DNA from: Psychrosphaera sp. B3R10
Lineage (GTDB): Bacteria; Pseudomonadota; Gammaproteobacteria; Enterobacterales; Alteromonadaceae
Length of the DNA stretch: 64,000 nt
Direction of reading: 5' to 3'
Assembly (NCBI RefSeq): GCF_018861025.1
Contig: NZ_JAHKQH010000040.1
Location: 124,001-188,000 of the forward strand
Shown here: piece by piece, positions 34,568-35,701 of the stretch
Position numbering within the stretch: the stretch's first letter is position 1
Layout of the letters: every line of letters begins with the position of its first letter
The notes under the pieces: generated by a model
The model's database searches: none
Seen by the model: only the letters and a program-made list of their open reading frames with translations
What the model was told of the DNA's origin: nothing
Translations under genes and position numbers: made by a program

Positions 34568-35701
34568 ATGCTGGTAAAATCCGTAATTATTTCTAATTTT
34601 CGAAATATCGAATCTGCAAACTTAATTACGGATAAAACAGTTAACGTGTTTTATGGCAAAAATGGTGGCGGTAAAACCAGTGTATTAGAAGCGCTGTTTT
34701 ATTTGGGGCGGGCCAAATCATTTCGCACTTCTAAACGTAAAACGTTAGTCAATAATGACAGTGAGCGTTTTGCTGTTAGTGCAGGCCTTGTTCAACATGG
34801 AAATGAACATCGCTTGGGGATTGGGTTAGAACTAGCAGGTGAGTCGTTAATAAAATTGGATGGTGAAGTTGTTTCTCGTTTGTCTGAAGCATCTTCTTTA
34901 TTTCCGACTCAAGTGATCACACCAGAAAGCTTTGACGTTTTTTTTAGCTCCCCTAAAGCACGGCGTAGTTTTATTGATTTTGGTTTGTTCCACGTGGAAC
35001 ACGAATACCAAGCAAAATGGTCTGAGTATGCGAGAGTCCATAAGCAGACAAACGCGTTACTAAGAAAACCAAATGTTAATAAAACGGAGTTACTTTATTG
35101 GTATAAGTGCCTTATCGATTCTGCAGAGATAATCGAAAGTTTTAGAAAATCATTTTTCGACAAATACTTTTCTAAAGCTATTGAAAAACTGGTAAATGAA
35201 TTACCTGACAGTGAAACAGCAATACTGATTAGAAATGTCGAACTTAAATATAAACCAAAGACATTCAGTAAGTCGGAAGAAAATTTTGAACAACTCATTT
35301 ATGACCAAATCGAAAAAGATTTACGTTATAAACAGGTTGGGTTCGGACCAAATAGGGCGGATATCGTTTTTGTTAAAGATGGCGACGATGTCAGTAATCA
35401 GCTTTCTCGTGGTCAGGCAAAAATGTTGTTTTATCTTTTAGAGATAGCGATGGTAAAAATCATTCGTGATGTTACCAAAAAGAATATGTTGTTATTGGTA
35501 GATGATCTTCCATCGGAAGTGGATGAATTTACACGTAGCACCATGCTTCAAATGTTATTACATTCAGAAGCACAAATATTTGTAACAGGGATAGAAAATA
35601 AAATTGCAATGGAATTTAAAAATTACACAGAATCGGTCAACGTGTTCCACGTGGAACAAGGTACCGTTACACCCAAAAGTATGGAGCAGTTATGTCCGTA
35701 G
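34568..35701 (+). CDS. recF: DNA replication and repair protein RecF
   Basis: A 377-residue SMC-like ATPase that helps load RecA at gaps with RecO and Rec[10 protein letters not shown] precedes Walker [11 protein letters not shown]; the signature region [19 protein letters not shown] and Walker [13 protein letters not shown] follow. It is slightly longer than E. coli RecF (357). Two perfect 16-bp parS sites are written into its codons, giving the peptide FHVE at both places. Its stop overlaps the gyrB start by 10 bases. Confidence 0.96.
34986..35001. promoter_or_regulatory. parS: parS site 1 (ParB binding), inside recF
   Basis: TGTTCCACGTGGAACA, a perfect 16-bp palindrome that matches the chromosomal parS sequence known from Pseudomonas and relatives. 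It lies in recF codons for LFHVEH. ParB encoded at 16977-17858 is the expected binder. Confidence 0.95.
35643..35658. promoter_or_regulatory. parS: parS site 2 (ParB binding), inside recF
   Basis: A second copy of the identical 16-bp palindrome TGTTCCACGTGGAACA, 657 bases from the first, near the 3' end of recF in codons for VFHVEQ. Two exact copies within one gene are not expected by chance. Confidence 0.95.

Follow-up and report, generated by a model that had tools for sequence, protein, structure and literature searches.

Two putative parS palindromes within the recF gene of Psychrosphaera sp. B3R10 and their relation to the codons and residues of RecF

Introduction

In Pseudomonas aeruginosa, recF contains the parS sites that are nearest to the origin (PMC3909081), namely, parS1 and parS2 (PMC5521831), according to the available text of both papers. 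The accessible parts of PMC5098823 describe in vivo occupancy mainly at parS1-parS4, where enrichment extends over >20 kb, and sites with two mismatches as unbound in vivo. Excess ParB lowered the expression of genes in the recF-gyrB region (available text of PMC5521831). Since parS has already been placed in recF of this species, its presence in this gene is not a new kind of thing; within the literature searched, only two P. aeruginosa papers (PMC5521831 and PMC3909081, each in its accessible portion) placed it there.

The stretch of DNA analyzed here in its full length of 64,000 nucleotides (referred to as the window) carries two copies of a 16-mer that is identical to P. aeruginosa parS2 and parS3 and to P. 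putida parS, as given in the available text of the sources, and both copies are located in recF. No earlier statement on a class-wide occurrence of parS in recF, or on its effect on RecF, was found in the literature searched; the parS survey by Livny et al. 2007 was outside its scope and may list recF sites. Within this scope, the occurrence of the sites throughout the class and their measured effect on RecF appear to be new, and parS in recF itself was known.

Materials and Methods

The order sample consisted of 197 genomes: a RecF match was present in 187 (absent in 10) and a ParB match in 154 (8 of them weak), and 160 recF genes were compared. The class sample (other orders) consisted of 151 genomes, one per family, with a RecF match absent in 23; 108 of 126 recF genes were taken, the 18 omitted being mostly weak matches. 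Genomes with only a weak ParB match (E value no better than 1.3e-23), namely, 8 in the order and G245, were counted as ParB-poor, and 23 order genomes were counted as having no ParB match by their absence from the match table. For other classes of the phylum, 20 RecFs were hand-picked from 120 genomes, irrespective of ParB.

In all comparisons, a site was defined as the 14-mer core GTTYCACGTGRAAC, in frame and at the homologous place of RecF, and was regarded as gone at three or more mismatches. Alignment misplaced a few sequences: G326 and G337 each have a 14-mer in the ORF that was not placed at a site, some rows of family f3 looked misaligned at site 2, and recF of G290 was split between contigs. 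Codon counts in the motifs were compared with each gene's own usage, from which the codons of both motifs were excluded; a scan of alignment columns excluded only the codon tested. The RecF tree (160 order rows and 6 of the 20 outgroup rows) was a quick one with long branches, the window RecF among them. The window ParB was aligned to C. crescentus ParB, with contact residues according to the available text of PMC7383237 and, by our own count, an offset of 10 between the numbering of the chain and that of the paper.

Results

Two exact palindromes in recF

The first-pass annotation had reported two exact palindromes in recF, both encoding FHVE, and no other full site in the window. Both statements agreed with our scan: exact matches to TGTTCCACGTGGAACA were found at the two positions in Table 1, inside the recF ORF and in the same frame, reading F-H-V-E at residues 141-144 (site 1) and 360-363 (site 2). 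Site 1 further comprised the end of the codon preceding F141-H142-V143-E144 and the start of the codon following it. The third-best match (8278-8293) carried 3 mismatches and was the sole further one at this threshold; shuffled windows contained a mean of 0.27 matches at three or fewer mismatches, and at least 3 such matches in 1 of 100 shuffles. The genome-wide search at one or two mismatches, which had also been proposed, returned only the recF pair in the whole assembly (4,735,463 bases in 48 contigs). Since about 0.001 occurrences of any given palindromic 16-mer are expected per such assembly (our own arithmetic, with base composition ignored), two copies in one gene are not a matter of chance. 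The looser 14-mer GTTYCACGTGRAAC gave 2 exact sites in the assembly, both in recF, and 1 more with one mismatch; at two or fewer mismatches there were 37 sites, fewer than with a reversed control (60).

Site 2 ended 33 bases ahead of the start codon of gyrB, and this start overlapped the end of recF; the expression of gyrB might be affected by ParB at site 2. The match at 8278-8293 contained a perfect inner palindrome, GTTCCATATGGAAC, with 2 mismatches to the loose parS pattern, and directly preceded the annotated start of a short ORF on the minus strand (7906-8274), the product of which looks, from its sequence, like an alkyltransferase-like protein. Its CATATG core was the same as that at both recF places of genome G293 (see below), and it may act as an operator or as a weak site for ParB.

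Table 1. Features of the window that are related to the two palindromes
Feature	Position	Strand	Basis
parB, presumed reader of both sites	16977-17858	-	TIGR00180 (198 bits; cut-off, 58); matches to solved ParB chains; switching residues
parA, partition ATPase	17886-18677	-	ORF beside parB; ParA/MinD-type family matches
dnaA, origin-region marker	32037-33443	+	ORF; identity read from sequence
dnaN	33457-34560		ORF before recF; read from sequence
recF coding sequence, 377 aa	34568-35701	+	ORF between dnaN and gyrB ORFs; NCBIfam TIGR00611 (288 bits; cut-off, 172)
parS site 1 (putative), 16-bp palindrome	34986-35001	.	Exact match; codon fixation across families
parS site 2 (putative), 16-bp palindrome	35643-35658	.	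Exact match; codon fixation across families; encodes F360-H361-V362-E363
gyrB	35692-38142		ORF after recF; read from sequence

Partition genes and origin neighborhood

Sites 1 and 2 were ~2.9 and ~3.6 kb, respectively, from the start of dnaA, and parAB was ~16-19 kb from the recF sites. Across the origin region, parA and parB were accompanied by ORFs that are presumably mnmG, rsmG, and the atp operon. The matches of the parA product were all under the curated cut-offs, and its name was based on these and on its location. The parB product also matched the Noc model (TIGR04285) with 220 bits, under the cut-off of 315. When aligned to C. crescentus ParB, it showed G-K-S-R at 170-173 and a glycine at 201, so that counterparts of both R173 and G201 were kept; these go with a preference for parS rather than for the Noc site (available text of PMC7383237). 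The window ParB thus has parS-type specificity residues at both switching positions. Other differences from C. crescentus ParB were T179 to Y and A184 to K, and two further contact positions also differed (Q162 to H and R204 to K).

The sites were most likely parS, because they are identical in sequence to parS2/parS3 of P. aeruginosa and because the window ParB has parS-type switching residues. The identification as parS in the first-pass annotation was supported by these two points and by the place near dnaA, the presence of parA-parB in the window, and the published P. aeruginosa data.

Distribution in the class and order

The closest named relatives identified belonged to Psychrosphaera; all three Psychrosphaera recF loci had both exact 16-mers, with RecF being 64-65% identical to that of the window. 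Outside Psychrosphaera, the window RecF showed 26-38% identity to the relatives compared, its best matches included, and had a long branch, with both blocks exact. The window ParB was up to 70% identical to that of its family, in contrast to the fast-changing RecF.

Among the 104 ParB-bearing class genomes, 77 had the pair, 11 had only site 1, 7 had only site 2, and 9 had no site; the core was, therefore, at one or both homologous RecF positions in 95. In the order, 43 of the 119 ParB-bearing genomes had both sites, 42 site 2 only, and 34 neither. The core was found at either recF site in none (0/20) of the RecFs from other classes of the phylum. Within the 108 class genomes, 177 of 216 core sites were inside recF, and all sites were in recF in 75 of the 102 genomes with any core site. 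Five changes for site 1 and 9 for site 2 were counted on the order tree, gain and loss being indistinguishable. From these comparisons, the recF pair appears to be ancient in the class and to have undergone repeated losses; being widespread in the class, it was probably present in the class ancestor.

A third canonical 14-mer was found between the usual two in recF of L128 and L143 (G075 and G150; family f9), at approximately nucleotide 648 of the ORF. Four genomes (G313, G002, G050, and G132) contained 9 to 12 canonical 14-mers, far above the usual number; three of them belonged to f3, the compared members of which were largely without recF sites.

Codon constraint at the sites

In class rows with FHV[E/K], the codons observed at site 1 (with the number expected from own use in parentheses) were CAC in 89 of 90 (38.1), GTG in 89 of 90 (27.4), GAA in 78 of 78 (41.8), and AAA in 12 of 12 (6.8). 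The corresponding values at site 2 were 85 of 87 (38.1), 86 of 87 (27.9), 69 of 69 (35.9), and 18 of 18 (11.3). Own codon use predicted less than half for His, approximately a third for Val, and, for Glu/Lys, a share between roughly one half and two thirds. GTG was equally fixed in the order set (52 of 53 rows at site 1 and 107 of 108 at site 2), and CAC was less fixed there (46/53 and 86/108). When 135 RecF columns of 104 class rows were scanned for codon bias, the top five (V143, V362, H142, H361, and V140) were all parS codons, and E363 and E144 ranked seventh and eighth. The sole non-site column among the top ranks was S121 in sixth place, with a strong AGT bias (40/78 versus 12.6 expected); this may reflect the two unconnected codon blocks of serine.

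The z-values of these codon tests overstate the strength because the families share history. On the other hand, shared ancestry alone is an unlikely cause of the fixation at silent positions, because the class set contained one genome per family and the GC content of recF ranged between 0.33 and 0.72 (88 rows). The synonymous codons at both sites are held beyond the gene's own codon use.

Effect of the sites on RecF residues

In a model of the window RecF (40 aligned sequences; mean pLDDT, 91.4; pTM, 0.88), helix 129-143 ended within residues 141-144, and residues 360-363 were located in strand 357-363, near the C-terminus. If side chains alternate along this strand, F360 and V362 would point inward and H361 and E363 outward, in keeping with the residues that the DNA could set.

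One alternative is that RecF requires FHVE for its function as a protein, the palindrome being a by-product of these residues. FHVE without the palindromes, which the first-pass annotation had named as counting against its claim, came out mostly in favor of it: among rows with three or more mismatches, FHV[E/K] was found in only 2 of 119 (site 1) and 2 of 63 (site 2). Rows with one or two mismatches often kept FHV[E/K] (10/17 at site 1 and 25/34 at site 2; chiefly with CATGTG at site 2 in families f6 and f21), and the residues can, therefore, outlast the exact site. FHVE was kept at site 2 with this CATGTG core in 9 of the 13 f6 members compared and in 10 of 10 f21 members; the core may be a weak site, a decaying site, or a result of protein conservation. 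In three ParB-poor cases, L127 and L131 (f18) and L141 (f10), the one-mismatch sequence GTTCCGCGTGGAAC was found at site 2, coding FRVE, and looks like a decayed parS.

The need of the protein for these residues was favored by the frequent retention of F without the site: 72 of 76 ParB-bearing and 39 of 43 ParB-poor rows with site 1 gone, and 14 of 25 and 35 of 38, respectively, with site 2 gone. H was retained at site 1 in 41 of 76 and 38 of 43 rows, FHVEH is preserved in f6 and f21 despite their broken core, and 1 of the 20 outgroup RecFs had FHVES with other codons. However, V was lost once site 1 was gone (kept in 2/76 ParB-bearing and 0/43 ParB-poor rows), and a protein need cannot fix synonymous codons such as the GTG and CAC described above in genes of 33-72% GC. 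Furthermore, E and K alternate, and K is found mainly next to TTT, in agreement with the palindrome. In class rows that have the core, K was next to TTC in 0 of 51 (site 1) and 4 of 48 (site 2), and next to TTT in 11 of 38 and 14 of 38. With relatedness ignored, Fisher p values for this link were 3e-5 and 0.003 in the class and 0.010 and 0.006 in the order set (sites 1 and 2, respectively). This alternation is as expected if the arms of the palindrome matter, though TTT with E is also common. A purely protein-level cause of FHVE was rejected because of the fixed synonymous codons and the loss of V with site 1, and we regard the by-product explanation as improbable.

At site 2, H was kept in 3 of 25 ParB-bearing and 10 of 38 ParB-poor rows after loss of the site, and V in 5 of 25 and 17 of 38. 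Therefore, V143 and H361 show the clearest dependence on the DNA site, and E144 and E363 a partial one; F141 and F360, and in part H142 and V362, seem to fit RecF by themselves. Only approximately half of the eight residues look DNA-driven, because F at both sites and, partly, H at site 1 and V at site 2 persist without parS. For part of the residues, these patterns suggest that the DNA site is followed rather than protein function.

In each of two genomes, G220 (L200) and G293 (L291), the cores at the two recF places had changed in the same way, to CACATG and CATATG, respectively, and their RecFs read FHME/FHME and FHMK/FHMK, with Val replaced by Met at both sites. These altered cores were the only looser-pattern sites in the two genomes, which had no canonical core. 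In G199 (L225), one place had CACATG and the other had the reverse complement of this core (FHMK and FHVK), with no canonical core left in the genome. All three are candidates for a shifted ParB preference.

Co-occurrence with ParB

In the order, the core was at a recF site in 0 of 41 ParB-poor versus 85 of 119 ParB-bearing genomes; because ParB status changes only approximately twice on the RecF tree, this contrast does not amount to 160 independent cases, and a ParB-loss test on the tree had no power. At the family level, at least one member with a site was found among those compared in 16 of 17 ParB-bearing families and 0 of 8 ParB-poor families. Among the four ParB-poor class genomes, one had both sites, one had site 2, and a third had the 14-mer in recF, missed by the alignment. 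The genomes with a core in recF and no ParB match (G234, G326, and G327) were drafts with 81, 90, and 95% completeness, and ParB was possibly missed in them. The ParB-poor genomes G019 and G102 had one 14-mer each, away from the recF sites. The recF arrangement is dispensable because 34 of the 119 ParB-bearing order genomes had the core at neither place; 31 of these 34 belonged to f3, f6, and f21.

Another DNA-binding protein, such as a regulator of recF-gyrB, might read the sites, their likeness to parS being only a resemblance. The closeness of site 2 to gyrB and the lower local expression with excess ParB in P. aeruginosa (available text of PMC5521831) are in line with this, but site 1 is ~690 bases ahead of gyrB, the sequence is that of the Pseudomonas parS sites cited above, and no recF site was found in the ParB-poor genomes of the order, though these represent few independent events. 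Such a reader is, in our estimation, still less probable than the by-product explanation.

Discussion

Two functionless copies by chance can be dismissed as next to impossible, and this origin was rejected, given that the 16-mer pair is unique in 4.7 Mb and that the core is at homologous positions in 95 of the 104 ParB-bearing class genomes. We consider it very likely that the palindromes are chromosomal parS, read by ParB for segregation, in an inherited recF arrangement that partly dictates the codons and residues of RecF. The comparisons show that the sequence equals parS, that the pair is unique in the genome and located at homologous positions across the class, that its codons are fixed, and that the encoded residues change without the site; ParB binding, a role in segregation, and the ancestral state are inferred. 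ParB from parAB would load on the recF sites and then spread, and ParA would pull newly copied origin regions apart via the loaded ParB; the location of both sites in recF would be an arrangement inherited in the class. Because the DNA sequence of the sites has to be preserved, the codons and some of the residues at 141-144 and 360-363 would be maintained by the partition site in addition to RecF function.

According to the first-pass annotation, a selfish DNA constraint had probably shaped two stretches of RecF. The constraint itself was supported by codon fixation, residue change without the site, and the joint change of Val to Met in two genomes. "Selfish" is wrong because a chromosomal parS serves the chromosome carrying it, and the residues that persist without parS also speak against the claim in its full extent. 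In a broader form, which we hold to be rather probable, the partition center has been the recF parS pair since the class ancestor, in many families as the sole canonical sites; two stretches of RecF would long have been set by partition, and a shifted preference of the reader would change RecF at once in two places 219 residues apart.

The recF pair offers a clear case in which a partition site dictates the codons and some of the residues of a widely held repair protein, over approximately a hundred families. It is a caution against reading FHVE in RecF as a functional protein motif. In many families of the class, the main parS sites might be recognized simply by means of the recF pair, and genomes with CACATG and CATATG cores at both sites provide natural variants for the co-change of ParB and its site.

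Among known systems, ParABS of V. cholerae chromosome I is similar in that parS palindromes in the origin region are read by ParB-type proteins. It differs in the placement of its sites: three parS are located at +63 to +69 kb from oriC (available text of PMC5098823). The likeness to parS1 and parS2 of P. aeruginosa includes the sequence, TGTTCCACGTGGAACM, the gene, recF, and the presence of two sites near the origin (PMC5098823, PMC5521831, and PMC3909081, in their accessible parts). The ends of parS1 (...GAACC) and parS2 (...GAACA) would also fit FHVE-P and FHVE-H/Q, which are common at sites 1 and 2, respectively. P. aeruginosa has two extra bound sites outside recF (parS3 and parS4, according to the same accessible parts), whereas the present genome has the recF pair only.
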